In this document: in pieces, positions 15,401 through 40,391 of the stretch
Layout of the letters: the number at the start of each line of letters is the position of its first letter
Numbering within the stretch: the stretch's first letter is position 1
NCBI GenBank assembly: GCA_025677835.1
Contig: JAIXMR010000037.1
Location: 1 to 64,000 of the forward strand
DNA: 64,000 nt
Reading direction: 5' to 3'
Origin: Sporodiniella umbellata
Taxonomy: Eukaryota > Mucoromycota > Mucoromycetes > Mucorales > Rhizopodaceae
Position numbers and translations under genes: made by a program
Notes under the pieces: generated by a model
What the model was told of the DNA's origin: nothing
Seen by the model: the letters and a program-made list of their open reading frames with translations, nothing else
Database searches by the model: none

Positions 15401-16827
15401 AGAGCGCAACTGAACAATAGATCTCAGTTTTTCGGGAGAAGCCGACTTCACAGTTTCGTCGTAATATTCGCTAAGCAAGTAGCCCAGTGGAAGCTTTTCA
15501 TTCTCAGTCAAAGTTTCCAACTCTTTTAATCGTGCTGCAGCTCTTTTTTCAATCCGTTTCTCTCTCTCAGATAGAACCATTAACGGATCAATACCAACAG
15601 GTAATCTTTCTGGTAAAAGTAGTCTTTGCTGCCGTGAAGAGTGAGCATGTGATCGATCATGACCAGATAAAAGATCCAGTGCAGTTACGGCATTAGGTTC
15701 GTCAACCCCATTCTCTTTTTTGTCCTGTTTTATACGGTCATATTCTGCTGCTTGTAAATAAATGACATCTACAAGCCTCTCGGCCATTGTCTTGGGCACT
15801 TCTACTGGCTGTTCAGGGATTTCCGCGTTTGGAGTCTCCTCAAGTTCTGTAGTAGGAATGAACGAATTTGGTTCCTCACTTATTGCCGGAGAATTATTGT
15901 TAGCTATATTTTGAGATAGGAGATTGTATGCAAGCATTTGGTATTGTAGAGTGTTATTGATCGATGCATCGTTGTTGGTAGCTTTTTTTTTTGTTGAAAA
16001 AGAAAAGTTGGGGTGAGATTAAAAGCATCAAATAAAATTTAGTAATTTACAAGGAACGTTATTTGCCAATTGCTGTTGCTGAAGCAAGTGCTGTTGCAGT
16101 AAATGGATTTGCATTTGTTGCATTTGGAGCTGAGTGAGACCAGTTTGCGCATTTCCCGTAGGCACAAAAGGATTGTGTGGCGCTGCTTGAGGTTTTTGAG
16201 GCAGGTCTTGTTGTTGAGGTAAAACATGTTGGGGAAGGGTTTGCTGCTGAGGCATCATTTGCTGTTGTTGTTGAAGCACTATAGATTGTTGCTGAGGCAT
16301 TGTAGACTGCTGTTGAGGCATTGTGGATTGTTGCTGAGATATTGCAGATTGTTGCTGAGGAATTGAAGGTAACTGTTGAGGCATAATGTGCTGTTGTTGC
16401 TGTTGCTGATGAAGCATTGCCTGCTGCTGTTGGAGCATCGTGTGTTGCTGTTGTTGAACAGCTTGCGGTTGCTGAGACATTATTGATTGAGGGGTTGGCT
16501 GAGGAATTGTTTGTTGGAGGTGCTGAAACGCGATACTTTGTTGCCTGTGAAGGGATCTCAAAAAATTCATCAGTTGAGAAAACTCATTTTGCCCATCTTC
16601 TTTTTCTCCAGCCGCTTGGAGCTGTTTTGCTCTCTGTAAAAGGCATAATCAGTTTTTTAGAACAAAAAGTGAAAAAAAAAGCGAAAACAAATTTCAAAAA
16701 AAAAAACTGTTTTTTCTGTATTTACTTGAAGGGCAAAGTTCAACTTTTCTTTTGTTAAAGTAGCTAAATCCAGTTCCAGATTGGCATTGGCGGCAGTAGA
16801 AGTTGACGGTGAGTTATTGTTGTTCAT
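12458..16827 (-). CDS. STH1: SNF2/STH1-type chromatin-remodelling ATPase, no bromodomain
   Basis: Ten exons on the minus strand: 16827-16726, 16633-16051, 15981-15374, 15306-14767, 14712-14608, 14545-14382, 14322-13842, 13775-13612, 13558-13375 and 13327-12458; 3801 nt, 1266 aa. In order: a short QLQ-like region, a long glutamine-rich segment (residues ~75-215), an HSA-type helical region (~470-560, basic), then the two-lobed ATPase. The ATPase starts at GKLKEYQIKGLQWM and shows Walker [12 protein letters not shown], the DEGH box, [19 protein letters not shown] and [12 protein letters not shown] SnAC-like segment follows ([11 protein letters not shown]...). These are the hallmarks of the catalytic subunit of SWI/SNF or RSC, which slides nucleosomes using ATP. 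The protein stops at [10 protein letters not shown], ~60 residues after SnAC, without the C-terminal bromodomain usual in Snf2/Sth1. Whether it is the Snf2 or Sth1 lineage cannot be settled by eye. Confidence 0.93.
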
Positions 16828-17879
16828 AATCGGAAAATAAACTTAGGAGGTTTGAGAATTCAAGACTTTGCTAAAGGTTAAATTTACATGATTATTGAAG
16901 AAAAAAAGAAAAAGAAGCTTTTTTATTCACTTTTCTTTGTGTTTTTTACCCGCTTTATTTTTATCCTTTCAATTTTTTTTTTTTTTAATTTTAGTTGTGC
17001 GGTTATTCCACTTTTTTTGCAACAAACGAAAAAAAGTGAAAACAAAAATGAGTCTGAAATTAGTATGTGACGTATCTAAATCGGTGGCTGAAACTACTTT
17101 AGTTCACTAGGTGGGCAGTGTGCTGTAAGAATATTGGCAGCAATGCACTTACCCTCAAATCACCTATTGTTTGAAGGCCTTACACCTGGTTGATCTATCC
17201 TGCGTGAAATGAAACTCTTTAAAAATGAAAATGCTTTTTTGTGGCTTCCAATTGTCGATCTATTCTTTTTTAACAGCCATCTTCTAGATCAATCCATAGT
17301 GTTTTATACATCAAGCTTAAAAATAAAAATAAGGTTCAATCATTCAACTAAACTAACATTGTTTCCAAGATTACACTTATTTCAGTTTGCAGGAAAAACA
17401 CAAGAAAAAACCGAGCTGTGTGATCGTCATAATAAACTGTATAGCAATGCTTATTGCATTTCACCATATAAACATCCCTATTGCTCTTCTCATCAGCAAT
17501 AGCAAACATTGCAGGATTATGAGGTTTCTCAGAGGTTTATTCACTTAGAATTGAGTATAAGAACTTATTATTTCGACAGCAAATAACTCTTCGCCAACAA
17601 CAAGATCTACAAAACTTACTTCCAGTTTTTCTAACATGATCTTGTCGATTTTTATAAAAGAATTGCATATCCATCTTCCTTGTCTAAAAGAAACCGTAGA
17701 CAGGAAGAAGAGAGTACAGAAAATCGTTCCTTTTTTTTATGATCCTAAGAAATTTTATTGGGCAACCGACGAAGCGATGTTCGGCATTAGTGTTGAACAC
17801 GCAATTTTTTTGCACGACATCAAACTCAAAATCAGAGACTTTACTTTCTGAAATGACTGTAAGGAGTGGATTCAAGTTA
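16828..17879. other. Intergenic region left of the mobile element
   Basis: No supported gene. It contains the divergent upstream region of the SNF2-type gene (T-rich 16,895-17,000) and then ~800 bp that, before the element inserted, would have been continuous with the sequence now starting at 26,295. The right end therefore is probably part of the original upstream region of the PAS/GATA gene. Short frames at 17209-17502 and 17636-17851 show no domain. Confidence 0.5.
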
Positions 17880-18664
17880 CAGTGCCTCCGGTGCCAATTG
17901 ACGCTTTTGAAAATCCCAATTGGCGCTTATCTCAAGCCTCAATTCGCGCATTCTAACATCCCAATTCGCGCTTTTGAGTAACCCAAATAGCGCTTCCAAA
18001 TATCCCATTTAGCGCTTTTAGCTATCCCAAATGACGTACTCAATAAAACGCTTTTTGCATCAGTACTCCTTCTTTCAATACTGTATTCAACTTAAACGAG
18101 CGTTAGATTTTTCAGAGAGGATGGACAAGGAGGAATGTTCAATGAGGATGGCTCTGAGGCCATGGACTGGGAGGAGGAAGCAGACAATCCCCTTAGGACG
18201 CAGACACTTACTTCCTTACACGAATGGCGATTACACCAAATGATCATTGAGCCAGCAGCTCATGATTTACAGAGAGTGGATGTTGTTATGACAGAACTAG
18301 AGGCTAAGATTTCTAGCTCAAGAAAAGTCTACAACAATTATTCTGACGAACAAAAGGCACTCTTCTTGTACCTGCTTAAGTTTAGATTTTTGAAGGCAAA
18401 GCCTGCTGCTGAGCGAGCATTAATCAATGTTAGAACTGCCCAGGGTTGGGCGAAGCGAATGAAGGAAGACCCAGAGTGGGATATTTACGAAAAACTTACA
18501 AACAAAGTCAACCGTGCTGGATCGCAACTGCAGGTAGAGCACAAACACTTCCTGATGAATCTTTTCGATGAGGAACCTCAAGCAACTAGGCAGGATGTTG
18601 TTGATGCTCTTACTGCAGCCTTTGAAGGGTTCAGCCTAAAGGCATCCCAGGTGGGCACATTTAT
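17880..18664 (+). repeat. Left terminal inverted repeat (785 bp)
   Basis: This repeat matches the reverse complement of 25510-26294 from the terminal CAGTG to the shared GGGCACATTTAT, after which the two arms diverge (CAAAG on the left, ATACA on the right). The outer ~160 bp are non-coding and contain the spaced GCGCTT-type motifs; the rest holds the promoter-like leader and transposase codons. Tc1-type inverted repeats are normally tens to a few hundred bases, so this arm is exceptionally long. Confidence 0.9.
17894..18038 (+). repeat. Seven subterminal motifs at 22-23 bp spacing
   Basis: Variants of CCAAWTNGCGCTT start at 17894, 17916, 17939, 17961, 17983, 18005 and 18027. The third (TCAATTCGCGCAT) and the last (CCAAATGACGTAC) are the most diverged. 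The spacing of about two helical turns puts all copies on one face of the helix, which suits repeated binding of a transposase or another DNA-binding protein. The same series is present in mirror image in the right arm, approximately 26136-26280. Confidence 0.8.
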
Positions 18665-18815
18665 CAAAGATGATTGCAACTTGACGGTGAAGCGAATCAC
18701 TCGTCGACCAGCTGCGAGAAACTCGCCTGAATCGCTTCTCAGGAGGAAGGAGTGGGTTGAAAAATGGTCTCAGACGGACCATGTCTCCCAACAATTATGT
18801 ATAAATTATGTATAG
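18135..18815 (+). pseudogene. Truncated Tc1/mariner-like transposase (left copy, DNA-binding half)
   Basis: An open frame of 226 aa starting MFNEDGSEAMDWEEE. The frame stays open upstream (EDGQGG) to a CAG that looks like an intron acceptor near 18114, so an upstream exon is possible. Residues ~70-125 (YSDEQKALFLYLL, NVRTAQGWAKRM) look like a helix-turn-helix domain as in IS630/Tc1-type transposases, and residues ~150-190 like a second one, followed by a basic RRPAARNSPESL linker. Full transposases continue with a DDE/D catalytic domain beginning soon after the EKWSQTD segment. Here the frame runs into HVSQQLCINYV and stops, with no DDE motif in the following kilobase. The product could at most bind the element ends. 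It lies mostly within the inverted repeat; the last ~50 codons are unique to the left arm. Confidence 0.75.
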
Positions 18816-19151
18816 TTTGAATATATGACAAAGTATAATTTTAGGTTTTTGTATCTCAGGGGCGAATTCAAGACATTCCTATTAGCACAACTCGTCTTGA
18901 CGTCTCTACTTCATTTAGTCGATAACTGGCCCGGACGATATACATTGTTGCATATTCAATGCTATAAAGGCATCAGAGATTACATGTAAATGGCTTCATG
19001 TGCCAAGAACGTTAATCAAATCAATCGAAAGTTGGTCTTGATCAAGCAATCCTTATCCCAACCCCACTCGCAATTCAGATCCCATACAAATACATTAAAA
19101 AACGCTACACGAAGGCTTTACTCATTCGGCTTTAAAATAAACATAAATTAT

Positions 19152-21267
19152 TTATCGCTTCTGTCTCTTTGTAGGTGAAACATATGGTGATGAGAGGTTG
19201 CTTAAAGGGGTCTCGGTACCGTCAGATGTGCTAGAGAGAGAGAGATAGTTGGCGATGCTTTGGTGGCTTTCAAGAATAAGATTCTACCAGTCAAAGTGGG
19301 ATAAACAAAATATTAGCTAACCATCATTAAAGAAAAAGGAGGATGTAACGCGTTACCTTGAGCTTCCACATGTTCGAAATAAAATCTGGCAATTGATCTT
19401 TGTAGGTGGCAGGGAGATTAGGGATGGAGAAATTATCAGCTTCCATGAAAACATATAAGCCTTGAACATACATCATTCGATAAACTATTACTTTTAACTC
19501 TGAAAAGAGAGGCTATTGTGTTATGATGGATATGATAAACAATGTCGACAAAAGAGACTTACCATAGATTTGAATACCGTATATTTGAATATTTTGGACA
19601 TGACTTTCAATGATGTGCTTTTTCAGATTGATTATGGATTTAATCATCGTCTTCAAATTTTTAGCAATTTTTTTTCTGTCATCCACAAAATGAGTCTGAT
19701 TTTGCATTAATGGGGCACCCGAGACCTCACCAACTGCGAACTCAACATTGTTGTAAATCATGCTTCTAAATGTGAAATCGACGTTTGGTCCTGGGCTTCT
19801 TCTGTCATCGTCATCGAGTGCATGATGTTCTTCTTTCTTTTTTGAAATCAGTTCCGCCTCGCCCCTAACGAAATAAGCGTTTTCAGTGAGAATTTTACGC
19901 GTCGTTATTAAGGTATCACCATCTGATTACTATATTTCGCTTGGAATACTTCAACAAATTATAAAAAAGAGGATACATGAAGCACATCGTGAATTCGTTT
20001 TCATTAATATTATCCTCAAATAATGACCTTTTTGTTGACAAGTTGTTGCTAATTTTAACAGGCTGTATTAGTATTGAGCATGTTGCTGGCAATGCATGGT
20101 TCATCTTACTATGTGGAGAGGACCCGAAGACAATACTTTTCGTATTTGGGCTTAGTCTGTGAGCGTCTTCTTTGCATCTTTGCTCTCTTCAATGATTTGC
20201 GTAAACTCTTCCTCTGATAAATTAAAAATCATGTTTTTGTACAATTTATCAAGAACCATACCTTATGTTTAAAAATTGACGTGGCATAATTTTTCACATC
20301 TGCACAATTGTCTTTTGCTTCAGAATCAATGTCGTTTTGATAGCTTTGGTAGTGGTGCTTGGCTAGCGAATACTTGTCTTTAAATATTGTATACACACCA
20401 GCGGAACCAGTGCGAGCGGTAAAATCCAATATATTGTAGTATAGGAGACTGTATCGTTTAAGTTGGATTTGAGCATATAACATAATCATTGAAGATGATT
20501 TAATAAACTTACTCTTGCTTATGTATCTTAACAATGTGGTGTACTGTTGCCAACCAGTTCAACATCTTCTCTTTGATACCTTGCGGATTAAACATATCGT
20601 CAGTTCCTAAGAAGAGTCGATCTATTTTATCATTTGGTTTTACAGTGGTCGACTACACAACAAAATTTGTGGCAATTAATATATATTTATCACAAAATAT
20701 TTGATAAACTCACAGTAATCAACTCCTTCACCGCGTTATCTTCTTGTATATGCAGGTTGACATGGAATTGTCGTCTTTTGTACGACAAATTCATCAGTTT
20801 CTCCTACAATTTACATAATCTATGTGTAAGGCACGTCTGATATCAGTATGAGAATCACGCAATACCTCCTGAACAAGATTTGCCAAATCTTCCCAATCGA
20901 CATTGTTGTAATCACCAATCAACTATTTGAAGAAAAAAACAAACCATCAGCAGCCTTCACTAACAAAGTTCCAACTGTATTACCTTAAACTTCTCTTCTC
21001 TTTTCTTTACAGAACCAAACAAGCTCGACCAATAAGTTCGAAACTGATTAGATAGTCCTTCTTGCTTATCAGGCAGATTGGCAGAATGCTTCACAATAAT
21101 GTCCTTCTTCGCCGCAAAGAACAAGCTGAAGTTAGTCTCATTGACATCACCCAAGTCTTGCAAGTATGTAAGTAAAATGTCCATTTTGTATTTATAATCA
21201 AGAGTGAAAGAAAGCTTGCTGCACACTTTTTGAAATGGAATCTTAAAGACGAGTTTGGGTGACTGTC
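19152..21267 (-). pseudogene. Multi-exon cargo gene of unknown function, with frame breaks
   Basis: Minus-strand exons splice in frame with good GT-AG borders: 21267-20984 (start uncertain; perhaps ATG at 21184, MDILLTYLQDLGDV), 20922-20866, 20803-20714, 20652-20513, 20448-20262 and from 20211. After KKTLTD an in-frame TAA (20154-20152) interrupts, while a neighbouring frame continues open (LSPNTKSIVFGSS). A second shift is needed at ~19,918 (RW to GDT). The next exon carries VEFAVGEVSGAPLMQ at ~19,700, followed by a GTAAGT intron and two further exons. The gene ends SSPYVSPTKRQKR at 19152. The GEVSG segment after an aspartate-rich stretch is loosely reminiscent of a nuclease-fold core, but that is a guess. 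I recall similar unnamed proteins as common in Mucoromycota, which I cannot check here. Unrecognised function; probably decayed, unless introns at the two breaks were misread. Confidence 0.5.
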
Positions 21268-21859
21268 ACACTTGAGAGACATCTCACATATTTTAAATAA
21301 TTATATCTTAATAATGCTGAGTCGTTTTAAATAAATACAAAATCTAGGAGATCATGTCTATTTGAAAGGTTTTTTCTATATTATAAGGCAGTTTTATTTA
21401 AAAAGAAACAAAAGACCAAAGGGATTGCAGTGACTGGATACATTGTTTTATTTGAAGGAAGAAAAGAAGCTAAAATTGTTATATATTTCATTAGATTTGG
21501 GATGTCTCTCCTTCTTTTTCTTTTTTGTAGGAAGGAGAACTGTCCAGGGACAGTGAAACTCCTTGGTTTATTTAAAGGCATGTAGACTGAATTTAAAAAA
21601 ATATAATGACTGTCACACTTCCAGAAGGATGACGCGTTTTTTTTTTCATGAATTTGCCTAGTACAGCCAATCTTGGCTATTGTGTCAACTTATTTCCTTC
21701 AACTATAAATGCTATGATCATAATGGTCGATGTGCGATAATACTGCGTAAAGACTGAACTTTTAAGGCCTTACTTAAAATGTGTCGATAGCCCTGACGAT
21801 AATTATGTACAATCACATCAGCTTCGAACGTGCAGCAAATGTTTCTCAGCCTTTTCTCC

Positions 21860-24670
21860 CTAAAAATGTTTTGCTTACTCATTCTATGTAAAAAAGGTAC
21901 ATCTTCCACACAAATATACAGAGTTATCATGAATTAGGTCAACTAAAATTTCTAGTAGCAACATTACCTGAACCAAATACTTGGATTGGACTCTCAGGAT
22001 AACTCTCAGTTGCAAAACTCCAGTTATCTTCCACCCAATCCTTGTATTCGGATTTCAGGCCAACGCTAGATCACTTGGATTGGACTCTCAGGATAACTCT
22101 CAGTTGCAAAACTCCAGTTATCTTCCACCCAATCCTTGTATTTGGATTTCAGGCCAACGCCAGATCACTTGGATTGGACTCTCAGGATAACTCTCAGTTG
22201 CAAAACTCCAGTTATCTTCCACCCAATCCTTGTATTTGGATTTCAGGTTATCGTCAAATCACTTGGATTGGACTCTCAGGATAACCCTCAGTTGCAAAAC
22301 TCCAGTTATCTTCCACCCAATCCTTGTATTTGGATTTCAGGCCAACGCCAGATCACTTGGATTGGACTCTCAGGATAACCCTCAGTTGCAAAACTCCAGT
22401 TATCTTCCACCCAGTCCTTGTATTCTGATCTCAGGCCAACGCCAGCGCCTAAAAATGTTTTGCTTACTCATTTCATGTAAAAAAGGTACAGTTTCCACAA
22501 AAATATATAGAGTTATCATGAATTAGGTCAACTAAAATTTCTAGTAGCAACATTACCTGAACCAAATACTTGGATTGGACTCTCAGGATAACCCTCAGTC
22601 GTAAAACTCCAGTTATCTTCCACCCAATCCTTGTATTTGGATTTCAGGCCAACGCTAGATCACTTGGATTGGACTCTCAGGATAACTCTCAGTTGCAAAA
22701 CTCCAGTTATCTTCCACCCAATCCTTGTATTTGGATTTCAGGCCAACGCCAGATCACTTGGATTGGACTCTCAGGATAACCCTCAGTTGCAAAACTCCAG
22801 TTATCTTCCACCCAGTCCTTGTATTCTGATCTCAGGCCAACGCCAGCGCCTAAAAATGTTTTGCTTACTCATTTCATGTAAAAAAGGTACAGTTTCCACA
22901 AAAATATATAGAGTTATCATGAATTAGGTCAACTAAAATTTCTAGTAGCAACATTACCTGAACCAAATACTTGGATTGGACTCTCAGGATAACTCTCAGT
23001 TGCAAAACTCCAGTTATCTTCCACCCAATCCTTGTATTTGGATTTCAGGCCAACGCCAGATCACTTGGATTGGACTCTCAGGATAACCCTCAGTTGCAAA
23101 ACTCCAGTTATCTTCCACCCAGTCCTTGTATTCTGATCTCAGGCCAACGCCAGCGCCTAAAAATGTTTTGCTTACTCATTTCATGTAAAAAAGGTACAGT
23201 TTCCACAAAAATATATAGAGTTATCATGAATTAGGTCAACTAAAATTTCTAGTAGCAACATTACCTGAACCAAATACTTGGATTGGACTCTCAGGATAAC
23301 CCTCAGTCGTAAAACTCCAGTTATCTTCCACCCAATCCTTGTATTTGGATTTCAGGCCAACGCCAGATCACTTGGATTGGACTCTCAGGATAACTCTCAG
23401 TTGCAAAACTCCAGTTATCTTCCACCCAATCCTTGTATTTGGATTTCAGGCCAACGCCAGATCACTTGGATTGGACTCTCAGGATAACCCTCAGTTGCAA
23501 AACTCCAGTTATCTTCCACCCAGTCCTTGTATTCTGATCTCAGGCCAACGCCAGCGCCTAAAAATGTTTTGCTTACTCATTTCATGTAAAAAAGGTACAG
23601 TTTCCACAAAAATATATAGAGTTATCATGAATTAGGTCAACTAAAATTTCTAGTAGCAACATTACCTGAACCAAATACTTGGATTGGACTCTCAGGATAA
23701 CCCTCAGTCGTAAAACTCCAGTTATCTTCCACCCAATCCTTGTATTTGGATTTCAGGCCAACGCCAGATCACTTGGATTGGACTCTCAGGATAACTCTCA
23801 GTTGCAAAACTCCAGTTATCTTCCACCCAATCCTTGTATTTGGATTTCAGGCCAACGCCAGATCACTTGGATTGGACTCTCAGGATAACCCTCAGTTGCA
23901 AAACTCCAGTTATCTTCCACCCAGTCCTTGTATTCTGATCTCAGGCCAACGCCAGCGCCTAAAAATGTTTTGCTTACTCATTTCATGTAAAAAAGGTACA
24001 GTTTCCACAAAAATATATAGAGTTATCATGAATTAGGTCAACTAAAATTTCTAGTAGCAACATTACCTGAACCAAATACTTGGATTGGACTCTCAGGATA
24101 ACCCTCAGTCGTAAAACTCCAGTTATCTTCCACCCAATCCTTGTATTCGGATTTCAGGACGACGCCAGATCACTTGGATTGGATTCTCAGGATAACTCTC
24201 AGTTGCAAAACTCCAGTTATCTTCCACCCAATCCTTGTATTTGGATTTCAGGCCAACGCTAGATCACTTGGATTGGACTCTCAGGATAACCCTCAGTTGC
24301 AAAACTCCAGTTATCTTCCACCCAATCCTTGTATTTGGATTTCAGGCCAACGCCAGATCACTTGGATTGGACTCTCAGGATAACCCTCAGTTGCAAAACT
24401 CCAGTTATCTTCCACCCAATCCTTGTATTTGGATTTCAGGCCAACGCCAGATCACTTGGATTGGACTCTCAGGATAACCCTCAGTTGCAAAACTCCAGTT
24501 ATCTTCCACCCAATCCTTGTATTTGGATTTCAGGCCAACGCCAGATCACTTGGATTGGACTCTCAGGATAACCCTCAGTTGCAAAACTCCAGTTATCTTC
24601 CACCCAATCCTTGTATTTGGATTTCAGGCCAACGCTAGATCACTTGGATTGGACTCTCAGGATAGCCCTC
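21860..24670. repeat. Two-tier tandem array: 94-bp monomers with ~119-bp spacers
   Basis: Monomers begin CTTGGATTGGACTCTCAGGA and recur every 94 bp. Six groups start at 21980 (5 monomers), 22569 (3), 22970 (2), 23277 (3), 23678 (3) and 24079 (6 plus a ~27-bp remnant at 24643). Between groups lies a ~119-bp spacer (for example 22450-22568); a diverged spacer copy also precedes the first group (21,860-21,979). The larger repeats are therefore 401 bp (three monomers plus spacer) or 307 bp (two plus spacer). Near-identical copies suggest recent expansion by unequal exchange or slippage. The open frames in the array are shadows of the repeat; 94 is not a multiple of three. Confidence 0.93.
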
Positions 24671-25119
24671 GTTGTAATATGCGCGGAAACCATACCGTTG
24701 AGTAACGTTGTAACTTACCATATCAATTTCATATATTATAATTTATGTTGGTTTTGACATTTTTTTTTTGTATTTTCAATTATTTTTTAGATATAATTGT
24801 ATTCTTTACCTATTAGTTTTGTTAATTTATAAAATATTCTTATAATTATCTTTTTTTTTATTATCTTAACTAATTCTATTTATTTTATATCTCCACTTAT
24901 TTTAAAACCCAAGCATTAAAAAAAATTACTGCGTGCTTTTTTTATTAATGTTTTTAGAAGAAAAAAATATTATCGGAATACACATCCACCTTTGAAAAGT
25001 AATGGAATGAGATATTTCGAAACAAAAATAAACTAATTTAATATAAAAAATTAAGAAAAGAAAAATATCTAAGATGTTTGCATCGTTTCTCGTTTGAAAG
25101 GTAATGTTTCCAAAAAAAA
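24671..25119. other. AT-rich filler inside the element
   Basis: Very AT-rich sequence between the array and the exon-like fragments, with T runs at 24760 and 24852. Short minus frames at 24926-25229 show no domain. Nothing further seen. Confidence 0.5.
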
Positions 25120-25498
25120 TCACTCCTCGTGTATGGAACTAAATAAGATTGTTGGTAGCAAATTACCTGAATCAAATTTTGCGGATATGCCTCTATTGAT
25201 TTCAGATATCCGGCATTAAAAATTTCCACGCACAGCCTAATTGCTCAACTATGCATTTTATGTTGGTCGTACGCTTTACACCCAAAGTGGAGGAACAAGA
25301 GGTTTAGCATACCAGATTAGCTTTGTCATTAGCTCTGTGTAATTGATGTCATTTTGATTATAGTTCTGATTATTACTCATAAACTCTCGAGATTGTATTG
25401 ATTTGAAGAGAAGTTTTTAATCCGAAATAGTTCATGAGACAGGTATCAACGTATTCAATGTCTTGTGCTGTTTCACCAGCCAACTATTCAAAGAGTCT
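25120..25498 (-). pseudogene. Exon-like fragments upstream of the array (unrecognised)
   Basis: On the minus strand, after an acceptor TAG near 25486, a frame reads LAGETAQDIEYVDTCLMNYF. With two short putative introns it continues through KLIWYAKPLVPPLW and VEIFNAGYLKSIEAYPQ to a GTAATT donor near 25166. The last donor, GTAATTTGCTAC, resembles the GTAATGTTGCTAC at the start of each array spacer. These may be the 5' exons of the cargo gene whose 3' exons lie at 19152-21267, separated by the array. Reconstructed by eye only; the very short introns make it uncertain. Confidence 0.3.
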
Positions 25499-25499
25499 G

Positions 25500-26039
25500 T
25501 CAGTTGTATATAAATGTGCCCACCTGGGATGCCTTTAGGCTGAACCCTTCAAAGGCTGCAGTAAGAGCATCAACAACATCCTGCCTGGTTGCTTGAGGTT
25601 CCTCATCGAAAAGATTCATCAGGAAGTGTTTGTGCTCTACCTGCAGTTGCGATCCAGCACGGTTGACTTTGTTTGTAAGTTTTTCGTAAATATCCCACTC
25701 TGGGTCTTCCTTCATTCGCTTCGCCCAACCCTGGGCAGTTCTAACATTGATTAATGCTCGCTCAGCAGCAGGCTTTGCCTTCAAAAATCTAAACTTAAGC
25801 AGGTACAAGAAGAGTGCCTTTTGTTCGTCAGAATAATTGTTGTAGACTTTTCTTGAGCTAGAAATCTTAGCCTCTAGTTCTGTCATAACAACATCCACTC
25901 TCTGTAAATCATGAGCTGCTGGCTCAATGATCATTTGGTGTAATCGCCATTCGTGTAAGGAAGTAAGTGTCTGCGTCCTAAGGGGATTGTCTGCTTCCTC
26001 CTCCCAGTCCATGGCCTCAGAGCCATCCTCATTGAACAT
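25500..26039 (-). pseudogene. Truncated Tc1/mariner-like transposase (right copy, DNA-binding half)
   Basis: The same protein as the left copy through residue ~176 (ending ...SQVGTFI), then two unrelated codons and a stop. It is shorter than the left copy because the inverted repeat ends at 25510. It is transcribed towards the interior of the element, facing the left copy. It carries only the DNA-binding part, with no catalytic residues. Confidence 0.75.
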
Positions 26040-26294
26040 TCCTCCTTGTCCATCCTCTCTGAAAAATCTAACGCTCGTTTAAGTTGAATACAGTATTGAA
26101 AGAAGGAGTACTGATGCAAAAAGCGTTTTATTGAGTACGTCATTTGGGATAGCTAAAAGCGCTAAATGGGATATTTGGAAGCGCTATTTGGGTTACTCAA
26201 AAGCGCGAATTGGGATGTTAGAATGCGCGAATTGAGGCTTGAGATAAGCGCCAATTGGGATTTTCAAAAGCGTCAATTGGCACCGGAGGCACTG
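25510..26294 (-). repeat. Right terminal inverted repeat (785 bp)
   Basis: Reverse-complement copy of the left arm, ending in CACTG at 26294 followed by TA. Apparent complete identity of both arms implies either recent formation or gene conversion between them. Confidence 0.9.
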
Positions 26295-26392
26295 TACTTT
26301 GACCGGGCTTATCTTGCGGAAACGTGTGTAACACTGCTCTCCTCAATTTCGGTTTATATCAACGCCAAAACTGTTTAGACACTTTCTCCTCT
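26295..26392 (+). promoter_or_regulatory. Remaining upstream region of the PAS/GATA gene
   Basis: Only 98 bp separate the right end of the element from the ATG at 26393. The original longer upstream region is now on the other side of the element (left of 17880). Any distal control sequences have been moved ~8.4 kb away and replaced by the element's right inverted repeat. Confidence 0.5.
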
Positions 26393-27541
26393 ATGCAACC
26401 ACCTATTTTTTTTGATTATTTATCAGAAAGCAGCTCTGCTCAACAACAAAACTTAGCTGAACCTATGGAAACTTTTTATCGTGCTTCGTCAGCGTCCTTT
26501 TCACACCCTGATGAAGATGAGGCAATGCAAATAAACGGTTCTACACAAAAGACTGGTATAGATTTTAAACGAAAAAAGAATTGGCCGGAAAAGATTCTTG
26601 TAGAAATTACCGGATTACTTCACATTCTTTCACCCTATGGCAGCATTTTGTATTGCTCAGAATCTTCTTTTCAACTTACAGGTTATAGGCCTCATGAGCT
26701 TGTAGGCCAAAGATTAGTGGAATTCCTGCATGTTGATGACATGGATATATTCATTAGAGATTTTCAAATGTCTTTTCACAGCCAATCGCAAATTACAACC
26801 TACTACCGCTTTCGTAAAAAGGACGAAACCTATACTCTTTTCGAAGTTGTTGGTCGTCCACGCTCTCGAATAGCCGGTAAACGCCCGGATGCTTTTTATG
26901 GTATGGCACAGCCAATACCTAGTAAGAATGGATCTTCGCTGGACACCTTTCTTGAAGTAAAAGCAGAAAACGAATGGCTAAAGTCTAGAATTGATGAGCT
27001 CTCTGAAAAATATGGCAAGCCTGCTATCAATCATACAGAAAACGATATTCAACAACAGTTGGAAATAACCTCAATAAGTGAACCATATACCAACAACGGC
27101 TATTTGACAGGTAGTAGTCAAAAGCACTCTAGAGATGCAACTGAAGAATCAAAAGCATGGCTTGATTATCACAAGTCAGAAATAGACGATATGATGGAAG
27201 ATGTAAAGGAAATTCACCCAAATGAAGAGTTAATGGACAAAAAAGACAGATGTAAACGAAGGGTAAGCCTAGATCAGTGGGAATACTGCATTATTGCAGC
27301 TTATAAATTTATATATATAACACAACTATAGAAAAAAAACAAAGAAGCAGACGAGTTTGTCTGCAAAGATTGTGGCACGACATCATCTCCAGAGTGGCGC
27401 AAGGGTCCTCAGGGACCAAAGACGTGAGGAAGAAACTTTTTTTATTTTTGGAAAAAACTGAGTTTTCTTTGTAGTTTATGTAATGCCTGCGGGCTTCGCT
27501 GGGCAAAAAGAAACCGAAAAAATGGAACAGTTGACAACTAA
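26393..27541 (+). CDS. White Collar-2-like PAS and GATA-finger protein
   Basis: Three exons, 26393-27262, 27332-27423 and 27475-27541; 1029 nt, 342 aa. Residues ~70-165 form a PAS domain ([18 protein letters not shown], then [19 protein letters not shown]). A short coiled-coil-like segment follows ([15 protein letters not shown]). The C-terminus has a GATA finger CKDC-x18-CNAC with [20 protein letters not shown]. One PAS plus one terminal GATA finger is the layout of WC-2, the partner of the blue-light receptor WC-1. The C-x2-C-x18-C-x2-C finger is the WC type. Expected role: light-regulated transcription in the nucleus as a heterodimer. Mucorales carry several WC-2 paralogues; I cannot tell which. 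A frame without ATG continues upstream to 26324, but the first ATG (26393) is preferred. The mobile element ends 98 bp upstream of it. Confidence 0.9.
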
Positions 27542-28706
27542 GCGATACACTCTTTTGAGGCACCAAAATGTAGGAACATATATCTCAACACTGTCCTTTA
27601 TATTGTACATACAAAAATAAGCCTTTATGTGAAAATAAAATTAATGTCATCATAAGTACACTTACTTTGGGTATAAAGACGGTTTGAATCAGTGTAGATC
27701 ATAGTCGATTTTTACATAGCATATGTTTTCTATTGTTTTTTCTATCGCAATTACAAAACTTCAGTTATTTAGTCCTTGAGATTCCAATAAGCACCTATTG
27801 AATTATGCAAGAGAGAAACAAGTATACCAAACTGTCCTTGTTTTTTTTTTTTTTTTTTTTTGGTAGTCGAAATATATTAAAATGTATTGTATTACATATG
27901 ATGATGAGTAAAATACCCTACTTGAGCTTTTAGAGTAATATAACAAAAAACATATAAAACTTTAAGGACATTGAAAGCTTTACTTCCAAAATTCTTTCTC
28001 AAAAAAGAAGTGATTGTCTCCTGTCAAATAAATATATCACGACGCTGAAATATTTACAAGGTGAACCTTTAACTTTCCACATATAGTACTTTCTTATATC
28101 GAGATCCTAGTTTTAATAAAGCCATTATAAATGAAGAGACAAGCGTCTGTGTAATCATGTGACATTTAAAATCCTGTCACCGTATTGCATGGCTATAAAC
28201 CCATTTGAAAAAAACCCAAAAAAAAACCAAAGAGCTCTTGAAGCTGCAGAAGATATAAATAAATCTGTAGTCAAAAATACCGCTCGCTTTCCCATGTTTT
28301 CTATAATGACAGGATCTTGAGTGACTGTGACGAAAATACGAAAGTATGATCAAAAGCAACTTTGCCCTCATTTAAAGGTGTCAAAAACACTTTGAGAGCT
28401 CATTCTCGACGAATATATCTTTTGAAAGATCGGATGTAAGAGAACAAACAGATGTGTGGAATCACTATTTTATTTTCAAATACTGTTAGTGTGGCCTTTA
28501 ACTTGGTATACACACGGAATGTTGTCTCATTATTCGCGGATGAAGTGTGAATAGCTAGAACAATTGTTAAATCGAGAGGTTAAACAAAAAAAACCTTAAA
28601 TAAATAGCAACACCAAAACTTTTGTTTTGTCAGCATATGAAAGGCGTTTGCACAAGGAAAGTGAAAATTGTATATTGAGGAATCGTTTTGTTTTTTTATT
28701 CTTTAG
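27542..28706. other. Intergenic region right of the PAS/GATA gene
   Basis: No supported gene. It contains a T22 tract at 27841-27862. Short frames such as 28177-28371 (minus) are not convincing. Confidence 0.5.
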
Positions 28707-37724: not shown

Positions 37725-40391
37725 ATGTCTTCCCGTGCGCCTTCTTCTCCTTCAACTGGATATAGTATAGTTGATATTCGTACCCCTTCCGTATCTGACC
37801 TCAAGTGCAAAATCAAGACTGATGTGGCACGTCCCCCTTCCCCACCTCACTCTTCTGAAACCTCAGAAGATGCTTTCAATGCCTCGGACCTGTCTGAAAC
37901 CATCATTGATTCCCTTGACAAGCCTCTGAACCAAAAGTCCATCCCAACATACATTTTGTATGATAAAAAAGGTTTGCAGCTCTTTGATCAGATTACCTAC
38001 CTTGATGAATACTATCTTACCAATGCTGAGCTGGACATTCTGAAGAGAAAATCGGATGAATTTGCCCAGCGCCTTCAGCATGGCAGTGTGATTTTTGAAC
38101 TTGGTGCAGGGTAAGTGAAAAGCAATTGTTTTGCAGTAACTGACGGTCTATTTAGTGCTCTGCGCAAAACCGAGGTTGTCCTGAATGCTATTGAAAAAAG
38201 AGGTATCCATGTTAGCTACTACGCGTTGGATCTTGACCAACACGAGCTTGAGAAATCTTTGGCTTCCCTGGGCGAGTTCGAGTATGTTCGGCTCTATGGC
38301 CTTTTGGGGACTTACGATCAAGGGATTCCTTGGATCAGCCAAGAGTTTGCCTTGAAAGGTATCCAAAAGAACTTTATGTGGCTCGGAAGTTCGATTGGAA
38401 ACATGGACCGCCTTCAGTCTGCGGTTTTTCTTGCTAAACTGCAAAGGATGTGTGTCGAACCAGGCGATTTGTGTCTTGTTGGGTTTGACAAACGCAACGA
38501 TCCTGAAAAGATAAGGAAAGCCTACGACGACTCTCAAGGTGTGACCCGTGAGTTTATTATGAGCGGTTTGGATCATGTCAACTTGATAATGGGCCAGGAA
38601 GACTTTATAGACCGGCGCCAGTTCGCCTACGATTCTGTTTATCAGGAAAAACAGGGACGCCATATTGCCCATTATCGCGCCTTGGTTGATACTCAGATTT
38701 CGTACCAGGATCGTAACATAAAGATCCAGAAAGACGAGCTTATCCATGTTGAGCATTCTTACAAGTACTCCTTGGAAGAAACCGACAGTATTTTATCTGC
38801 TGCTGGCTTGACGATGGTTGAGCGCTGGACAGATACCCAAGATTTGTACAGTCTCGTTTTAGCAGAGTCTCGTCCATTCCAGTTTGAACGCAACATGGTG
38901 GATGTTCTCAAGACCTTATTCCCGTCCGAGGAAGTGAACAGATCAGAGTCGGTCAATTGCGACTACTGTACCGTTTACAGTAACGTGTCTTCTAGCGACC
39001 TCGAAGCCGAGCGTTTCGACTTTGCTCAGCAAAGAGGCCTTGGGTGGCCTACAGAATCGCTTCCTACTACCCAGGAATGGAGGGAGCTTTGGAGCTGCTG
39101 GGATCTTGTCACTCAGCATATGATTCACCACCCTACCATGCTGTTTGAAAGACCGATTGCTTTACGCCATCCCTTCATTTTCTACCTTGGGCATATACCC
39201 GGATTCTTGGACATTCAACTTTCACGTCATCAGGTGGATAAGGAAATTGGCTGCACAAAGCTGACTGAGCCTGCTTACTTTTCAGAGATGTTTGAGCGCG
39301 GCATTGACCCTGATATGGAGGACCCATCTAAATGCCATGCCCATTCAGAAGTCCCCGCTCAAGACTGTGACTGGCCAAGTATCGAGTCTATGATGCTATA
39401 CCAAAAGAACATCCGTGAAAGACTGATGCGTCTTTTGAATTTTTGGGAGTCAGAAGCACTTGCTGTCCAGAATACATCTTGGATTGACTCAAACCCTGAA
39501 AGAAAAAGACAGGCTCGCATCGTTTGGATGTGTTTTGAGCATGAAGCAATGCACCTTGAAACCTTGCTCTACATGCTGATGCAAAGCCCCAATATACGCG
39601 CTCCCAAAGTGTCCCCTCCTTCATGGAAACTCAATTCCTCTCCAGAAGAAGTGAGACCTCTGTCGGACGCTCCTATTCTGAATGTCCCTGCTGCTGGTAC
39701 GGTGATTTTGGGTTGTGACGATAGTGAAGCGTCTGATTTTGATACCTCATCAAAGAAAATCCAACCCTTTGGCTGGGACAATGAAAGCCCTCCTCGAGTG
39801 ATAAAAGACGTTCAATCATTTAAAATTCAGGCTCGAACGGTTACCAATGGCGAATACCTGGCTTATATCCAAAACTCCAACTTGGCCACAATGCCCGTCT
39901 CTTGGTTAAAGGAAAATGGCTTAATCTACGTCAGGACAGTATTTGGACTCTGCCCAATGCAGGCTGCTCAACATTGGCCGGTTCAAGTGTCTTACAATGA
40001 AGCCAGTGCTTATGCTCAAGCCAAAGGGGGCCGACTGCCTACTGAAGTAGAATTGGTTCAATTCCGCGAGTTTGTATCCAACAGTAATCTACCCAAGAAA
40101 CTGCCCAACATCGGTTTTAAAGATTGGACGCCCACCGCTGTCAACAATAAAGAAATCCAATACCTTGGCGATCATTGGGAATGGACAGATTCCTTATGGG
40201 ATACATACGCTGGCTTCAAAACCTCAACTATCTATCCAGGCTACTCTGTTGATTTCTTTGATCAGAAGCACCGCGTTGTCCTAGGCGGAAGTTGGGCTAC
40301 ACACCCCCGTATAGCCGAAAGAAAGACCTTCAGAAACTGGTACCAATCCGGATACCCTTATGTTTTTAGTGGATTTAGACTTTGCTTTTGA
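37725..40391 (+). CDS. EGT1: Ergothioneine biosynthesis protein 1 (methyltransferase-sulfoxide synthase fusion)
   Basis: Two exons, 37725-38110 and 38156-40391; 2622 nt, 873 aa, the normal size for fungal Egt1. The N-terminal half is the histidine-specific SAM methyltransferase (EgtD type): IPTYILYDKKGLQLFDQIT, FELGAGALRKT, WLGSSIGNMDR. It makes hercynine. The C-terminal half is EgtB-like: a DinB/iron-binding region (HMIHHPTMLFERP, FYLGHIPGFLDIQL, FEHEAMHLETLLYML, which supply the likely iron-ligand histidines) and a formylglycine-enzyme-type fold (RTVTNGEYLAYI, GGRLPTEVEL, VLGGSWATHPRIAERKTFRN, SGFRLCF). It joins hercynine to cysteine as the sulfoxide. The product protects fungi from oxidative stress. 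The first ATG of the frame is chosen, behind a TATA-like box. Confidence 0.96.

Follow-up and report, generated by a model that had tools for sequence, protein, structure and literature searches.

A cargo-carrying 8.4-kb Tc1/mariner-type palindrome with transposase remnants in its arms in Sporodiniella umbellata, and its close relatives in Parasitella parasitica

The window analysed here, the first 64 000 bp of contig JAIXMR010000037.1 of the Sporodiniella umbellata genome (GCA_025677835.1; Rhizopodaceae, Mucorales), contains at 17880-26294 an element of 8415 bp, denoted C130, in which two inverted arms enclose an interior of 6845 bp, as delimited by base-by-base comparison of the arms. With a probability of about 0.7, we consider this to be a non-autonomous, cargo-carrying Tc1 element that is mobilised in trans, has expanded terminal repeats and was acquired horizontally. 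A first-pass annotation of the letters alone had proposed a large Tc1/mariner-like element, and the TA|CAGT ends and the transposase-related open reading frame (ORF) of the arms support that reading; what it overlooked was that such palindromes recur in the genome, that the arms consist of transposase sequence, and that a near-twin exists in Parasitella, a mycoparasite that belongs to another family, the Mucoraceae.

Alignment of 17880-18664 with the reverse complement of 25510-26294 gave 784 identical bases out of 785 with a single mismatch, the first 707 bases from the outer tips inward being the same in both arms. The arms were thus inverted and 785 bp long as first proposed, and one base short of the identity that they had appeared to have. 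So long an inverted match goes far beyond what chance would give, and it was the single inverted pair found within 16000-28500 in a repeat search (seed 14, minimum 20). Each arm opens with the terminal sequence CAGTGCCTCC, and TA|CAGTG stands at both arm limits, as the first reading had it. The features that define the ends are as follows.

17878..17879, no strand: left TA, target-site duplication, from the arm-limit comparison
17880..18664, plus strand: left arm, 785 bp, with the terminal CAGTGCCTCC, subterminal repeats, 5' region and N-terminal transposase codons
17893..18039, plus strand: about seven degenerate subterminal repeats spaced by about 22 bp, core CCCAATTNGCGCTT
25510..26294, minus strand: right arm, with 784 of 785 bases as in the left arm
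26295..26296, no strand: right TA, target-site duplication, from the arm-limit comparison

The last two subterminal repeats are weak and the whole series is mirrored in the right arm; these repeats are likely to be transposase-binding sites. The arms had been read as terminal inverted repeats (TIRs), which they are, but each also contains the 5' half of a transposase gene, with the following remnants.

18096..18815, plus strand: left N-terminal transposase remnant, 239 codons, from ORF and protein comparison
18665..18812, plus strand: left-only part of that remnant past the arm boundary, from comparison of ORF and arm
25500..26078, minus strand: right N-terminal transposase remnant, 192 codons, from the ORF

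In the left remnant, transposase homology stops near 18779 and is followed by an aberrant tail (...DHVSQQLCINYV), so that this remnant extends some 150 bp beyond the arm limit. A protein search found the arm ORF to be 75-78% identical to transposases of Mucor circinelloides (P0004) and Parasitella (P0005). P0004, at 75% identity, has 396 residues and scores above cut-off with both the DDE_3 and IS630 models, which makes the arm ORF a DD34E/D-related coding sequence; by itself, the arm remnant gave no significant Pfam match. Judged by this homology, each arm is the DNA-binding half of a Tc1-type transposase. Both remnants stop before the catalytic DDE domain, which is therefore absent from this copy, and C130 cannot itself make a catalytic transposase; neither did any of the 101 DDE_3 matches in the genome lie on its contig. 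With a TA immediately beyond each end, terminal inverted repeats that start with CAGT and this coding ancestry, C130 belongs with Tc1/mariner; an intact transposase, and the size of 1-3 kb, short TIRs and one gene that are typical though not defining of the group, do not fit an element of 8,415 bp with 785-bp arms and cargo.

Searching the genome with the transposase remnant gave 92 matches, many of them as inverted pairs on the same contig. When 69 of these and 94 of the 101 DDE_3 rows were combined (the remainder being mostly second gene pieces or weak rows), 111 gene-like groups resulted; at distances of up to 12 kb, neighbours paired convergently in 17 cases, divergently in 8 and in tandem in 4. 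Of the convergent pairs 15 were examined, the other two being combinations at C2 that were not treated as elements, and 14 of these 15 had arms of 785 bp to more than 6 kb at 97-100% identity; the exception was C57, with TIRs of only 145 bp. One divergent pair of the eight, C171, was also examined and had 873-bp arms with the transposase fragments directed outward; it forms a 2.5-kb palindrome (L058 885-3388) that looks as though the opposite end of the gene had given rise to it. Seven elements, that of the window included, were bounded by TA|CAGT on both sides, with one of the 14 ends reading TAGT, and the six others were 2.5-7.9 kb long with arms of 873-2821 bp. The total lengths were:

C130 (window): 8415 bp
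C120: 3511 bp
C14: 5464 bp
C125a: 6899 bp
C125b: 6677 bp
C2: 7898 bp
C171: 2504 bp

C120 has two 100% identical arms of 1682 bp with 151 bp between them, and each arm holds a 401-codon frame with a DDE_3 domain, the frame being defined as a stop-free stretch irrespective of the gene start; by our own residue count its transposase is DD34E. Five further palindromes (C112, C114, C117, C122 and C132) did not show TA|CAGT clearly at both limits and appear to be decayed. C57 (L059, 305499-310107) has two different facing transposase remnants with a cargo-like ORF between them and a left flank of AT, not TA; it could be a precursor stage. Among ten partnerless transposase loci, C131 was a two-ended element of 1.8 kb with TIRs of about 150 bp that do not start with CAGT, and at L029 facing TACAGT and ACTGTA ends lie 1.8 kb apart.

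The terminal 26 bp of the C14 family occurred 24 times in the genome at up to three mismatches, with no occurrence for the reversed control, and 16 of the 24 formed eight facing pairs (C14, C125a, C125b, C194, C195, C128, C189 and C34). Of the five new pairs, C194, C128 and C189 were inspected whole and C195 in part. In C194 a different gene lay between TIRs of about 407 bp (97.5%) and we could see no transposase ORF, and C128 had short patchy TIRs around another ORF. The proposal of a class of large cargo-carrying elements that target TA is thereby borne out, with seven palindromes at TA|CAGT and related ends around different interiors, the latter in the C14-type sister family. For the C130 family itself, the genome held only the two ends of the element and two degenerate solo ends, so that the expected further copies failed to appear there and a relative was found in another species instead.

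C14, C125a and C125b share their ends and centre at 95.4-98.8% over the aligned parts, in different flanks, from which it follows that the palindrome changed place or was copied in one piece and is older than the separation of the three. Over 1.6 kb, the two arms of one element are separated by 0-1 substitutions and arms of different elements by 12-29. Such likeness within and unlikeness between elements points to conversion between the arms, and the single mismatch between the arms of C130 can therefore not be used as a clock. The convergent cargo genes of C14 (L046 2652-3875) and C125a (L047 3266-4703) share N-terminal codons within the arms (YAYYIIGTDIPADSYAVASNEWA) and then diverge, which places the arm boundary inside the gene pair; the two cargos compared at a nonsynonymous divergence (dN) of 0.021 and a synonymous divergence (dS) of 0.037, which is uninformative. 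The C125a arms also carry a long array of simple-repeat type, open in several frames (L047 2265-3006 and 4963-5716).

A very close relative of the left remnant was the Parasitella parasitica protein P0001, identical at 215 of 218 residues (98.6%) and with 12 residues of the aberrant tail retained; a 21-residue gap in this alignment looks like a predicted intron. Two further Parasitella proteins, P0080 and P0081, matched the cargo of the window with 164 identities in 177 aligned residues and 195 in 211 (about 92%), and since the records of all three proteins lie on contigs of 211,316 bp, these were taken as one contig. Apart from these, a word-based search with proteins of about 170-539 residues matched the cargo only to the protein of the window itself and, at 36%, to one from Geosiphon. 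The sequence differences between Parasitella and the window oppose simple cross-contamination. Horizontal transfer of the element between the two fungal families appears likely from these comparisons, and a Mucoraceae source is favoured because transposase relatives with more of the gene occur in that family, whereas the closest other transposase in the Sporodiniella genome is 47% identical to the arm remnant. Parasitella fuses with other Mucorales, and gene transfer from it into Absidia glauca has been reported (PMC4807231).

Between the arms, the nearly 7 kb with a multi-exon gene and a satellite-like array that had been described at first pass were indeed found, with an eight-exon gene model and 94-bp satellite units, as listed here.

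19155..20794, minus strand: cargo gene, eight exons in a GT-AG model, matching the predicted protein BY458DRAFT_191770 exactly
20794-20714, 20652-20513, 20448-20262, 20207-20110, 20048-19920, 19864-19563, 19499-19357 and 19283-19155, minus strand: the cargo exons
20868..21184, minus strand: probable 5' cargo exons (start MDILLTYLQ...), from the Parasitella protein P0080
21979..24674, no strand: satellite array of 94-bp units, located 5' of the cargo gene, with a higher-order insert of 119 bp
24700..25074, no strand: AT-rich repeat with relatives elsewhere in the genome, several near contig ends

The exon model runs to a TAA stop and corresponds to a 403-residue protein predicted by NCBI (P0079), a gene prediction on this very DNA, so that the absence of stops is partly by construction. 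A nuclear protein would be in keeping with the basic run KRQKR at the C-terminus. In the genome the cargo is nearly single-copy, with one other match at 21%. The 94-bp satellite units, interrupted by a repeated 119-bp block, stand in register at 22 places. AT-rich segments at 24832-25074 and 21272-21513 have many relatives genome-wide, several within a few kb of contig ends, and are possibly subtelomeric or miniature elements.

By eye, many of the element interiors show a D...E-x-K/S pattern, which we take to be typical of PD-(D/E)XK proteins; no ORF of this type was seen by eye in C120 or C171. The motifs were PD...GEVK or GEAK (C132, C185 and C160), EFKK (C194), EWKK (C112), ESSG or EASSG (C189 and C117) and EVSG in the window element, whose D...EVS is kept in Parasitella and Geosiphon and is without the K of the D...ExK core. 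The window cargo may accordingly be called PD-(D/E)XK-like by motif only, which leaves that kinship unproven and any nuclease activity putative. An AlphaFold2 model of P0081, the second half of the Parasitella cargo, had the order strand-strand-helix-strand, which would fit that fold, in a poor model with a mean predicted local distance difference test (pLDDT) score of only 38.5. Using hhalign, comparison of the window cargo with other cargos was not significant (E 0.15; best P 0.0046, to C117, in 10 comparisons), and strong matches were obtained only for the C185-type cargo with C57 and for C194 with C112. These are two cargo families shared across elements, and a match to the C185-type cargo was also found inside C195. 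Pfam, NCBIfam and PADLOC scans of the cargo proteins gave nothing above cut-off except a Merlin-type transposase inside C114, solved structures searched by sequence with two cargo profiles gave no match, and Rfam gave none at gathering thresholds. Pfam scans of seven interior ORFs showed no tyrosine-recombinase captain of the Starship type, with no targeted search made. ISXO2/Merlin-type transposase fragments lie inside two palindromic regions (L054 6083-6592, and L050, which is C112).

We also considered a genome-wide association between cargo and Tc1. With seed elements excluded, 16 of 44 loci of three cargo families lay within 5 kb of Tc1 matches against 1.66 expected (15 of 44 without C170, which rests on a weak added Tc1 row while other weak rows were left out). 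A control with another transposon family, Merlin (9 matches), however, gave 3 of 9 by our own count, so that clustered mobile DNA explains much of the effect, and the association was not relied upon.

The mechanism that we propose for C130 would be as follows. The two outer ends would reproduce one and the same 5' end from a single Tc1 family, each supplying a TIR, the subterminal repeats and the DNA-binding half of the transposase gene. A related full-length transposase acting in trans could bind both ends, excise the 8.4-kb unit and insert it at a TA, with the interior gene moving along. The long arms could have arisen when one end spread onto the other, a terminal-repeat expansion by gene conversion or break-induced copying that perhaps started from two inverted copies, and conversion would then keep the arms alike within each element. 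The C130 family would have entered Sporodiniella horizontally; its donor would most likely be a member of the Mucoraceae, for instance the fusion parasite Parasitella.

Several observations weigh against this proposal. No full-length partner of the C130 family was found in the S. umbellata genome, and with the transposase truncated on both sides we can only infer activity in trans. In Parasitella the cargo is represented by two separate gene models and may there be broken or misannotated, and the comparison with that species is one of proteins. The host-gene control for transfer consists of one gene, in a list that does not include Parasitella's own homologue. Moreover, the larger inverted duplications C160a, C160b and C185 take in DNA other than Tc1, which argues against transposon ends having set every palindrome in this genome. 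Inverted duplication is not confined to Tc1 ends at C189 either, where the repeat overshoots the end motifs by at least 80 bp on each side. The C189 repeat (L072, 74650-77200) measures at least 311 bp at 100%. The duplications at C185 (L069, L064, L053 and L070) and C160 (L065, L056 and L066; L067, L057 and L068) span from more than 3 to 6 kb with cargo-like and retroelement-like DNA, one of them reaching a contig start, and in C185 the retroelement-like stretch, recognised by eye, lies within arms of more than 6.4 kb.

It could be argued from the oversized duplications and from C189 that C130 itself is a fold-back artefact of assembly or sequencing, or a random genomic inverted duplication not set by transposon ends. 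We find this scarcely credible, since both arms stop at TA|CAGTG beside different flanks and carry one mismatch, the left remnant continues alone past its arm, and six other elements show the same TA|CAGT limits; the exact limits and unlike flanks also contradict the palindromic-duplication artefact that had been named at the outset as a possible undoing of the reading. More weight is due to a composite in the style of insertion sequence (IS)-flanked transposons, in which unrelated host DNA was caught between two separately inserted, inverted and truncated Tc1 copies, with the cargo as an accident. The left copy reaches about 18779-18812 and the right one only 25510, as two independent truncations would, and two-ended Tc1-like elements of about 1.8 kb do exist in the genome (C131 and L029). 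The retained inner end that each flanking copy of a composite should have was not found in any of eight elements: the terminal 20 bp had no second copy inside them except for six weak matches with 6 substitutions (in C14, C125a, C2 and C57), which by our own estimate is about chance level, and the terminal 150 bp revealed no inner end except in C2. There, close to the inner end of each arm, 19 bp match subterminal sequence in inverted orientation; this could be the remnant of a lost inner end, in line with a composite origin and counting against our proposal. The 14 convergent pairs with 97-100% identical arms would in addition require later conversion if they arose by separate insertions, the host genome holds no good second copy of the cargo, and cargo and remnant recur together in Parasitella. 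We consequently regard a composite as unlikely for the element as it stands today, where the trapping of host DNA initially suggested is not seen, and as possible for its origin.

Vertical inheritance of an old element, kept in Rhizopodaceae and Mucoraceae and lost elsewhere, would account for the unequal divergence of remnant (98.6%) and cargo (about 92%) by unequal constraints over a long time, a difference that a single recent transfer does not simply explain and that speaks against our proposal in this respect; the cargo is also still modelled as a multi-exon gene in Sporodiniella. Against such inheritance, the truncated ORF keeps, without change, a 12-residue tail that is not of transposase origin, the adjoining host gene is 45-56% identical to its Mucor homologues, and the cargo matches only these two species and the distant Geosiphon, within the limits of a word-based search. 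We therefore hold vertical descent to be quite improbable, and prefer the horizontally acquired, trans-mobilised element with expanded repeats. A more far-reaching version of this reading is offered tentatively and with more doubt than belief: that C130 represents a Mucorales class of Tc1 elements in which the transposase was swallowed by concerted arms, the passenger is usually drawn from several PD-(D/E)XK-like nuclease genes that do not resemble each other, and spread occurs via mycoparasitic cell fusion, the nucleases perhaps aiding the element as accessory nucleases, homing-like drivers or weapons.

The element lies in an ordinary gene-bearing chromosome. To its left is a minus-strand gene with helicase and SnAC domains (SNF2-type), and to its right, from 26303 on, a PAS-domain gene resembling white-collar-2, which is the adjoining gene used above with the listed Mucor homologues; its product matches an S. 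umbellata protein at 99% over 78% of the query. From the ORF and P0031, the start of this gene is placed about 100-170 bp beyond the right end of the element (window 26295-26470), and the element may affect its promoter. Further along, an ORF at 38115-40391 has Methyltransf_33, DinB_2 and FGE-sulfatase domains, a layout that we presume to be ergothioneine-synthase-like.

Mucorales genomes are described as holding more than 200 Tc1/Mariner copies each (in the part of PMC7928374 drawn on here). Among elements for comparison, and as far as the consulted portions of the sources describe them, Tc1-MP1 of Mucor piriformis is a DD34E Tc1 element of 1,688 bp with 141-bp TIRs, one transposase of 434 residues and no cargo (PMC9977792). 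It belongs to the same Tc1 transposase group of Rhizopodaceae and Mucoraceae, is DD34E as is C120, and differs in having its gene between the TIRs, whereas the window element has 8,415 bp, 785-bp arms with half a transposase, and cargo. Tc1-OP1 of Ogataea, at 5,659 bp called by its authors the largest Tc1/mariner reported to date (PMC9977792), is likewise an oversized fungal Tc1 with extra coding material, but has the extra part fused to the transposase in one ORF, 169-bp TIRs and a smaller size than C130. Galileo of Drosophila has terminal repeats of variable length, the longest about 1.26 kb, whose growth is due in part to internal sequence being recruited into them (PMC3573991), and thus resembles C130 in its long, length-variable repeats; it belongs to the P-element superfamily, its copies with the longest TIRs lack a transposase ORF, and the portion of that source mentions no cargo gene. 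Sardine and Thon of Paramecium, with TIRs of 500-700 bp, and Tec1/Tec2 of Euplotes are Tc1/mariner-related with TA at the ends, but are ciliate germline elements whose transposase is not placed inside the TIRs in the description given (PMC3408717). Among the matches listed in the literature, titles and abstract openings revealed no Tc1/mariner element with its transposase in the arms or with such cargo in Mucorales. A nuclease passenger, as the cargo of C130 putatively is, has a counterpart in Fanzor, the TnpB-like RNA-guided nuclease whose gene is carried by DNA transposons of eukaryotes; neither Pfam nor NCBIfam scans matched the cargo to Fanzor or TnpB.

Tc1/mariner elements are generally taken as small, one-gene transposons. 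If our reading is true, the repeated palindromes of 2.5-8.4 kb with transposase in their arms, and often with a passenger, would show how Tc1/mariner elements gain cargo. The match in Parasitella is a natural opportunity to test whether transposons, too, are spread by a parasite able to fuse with other moulds.

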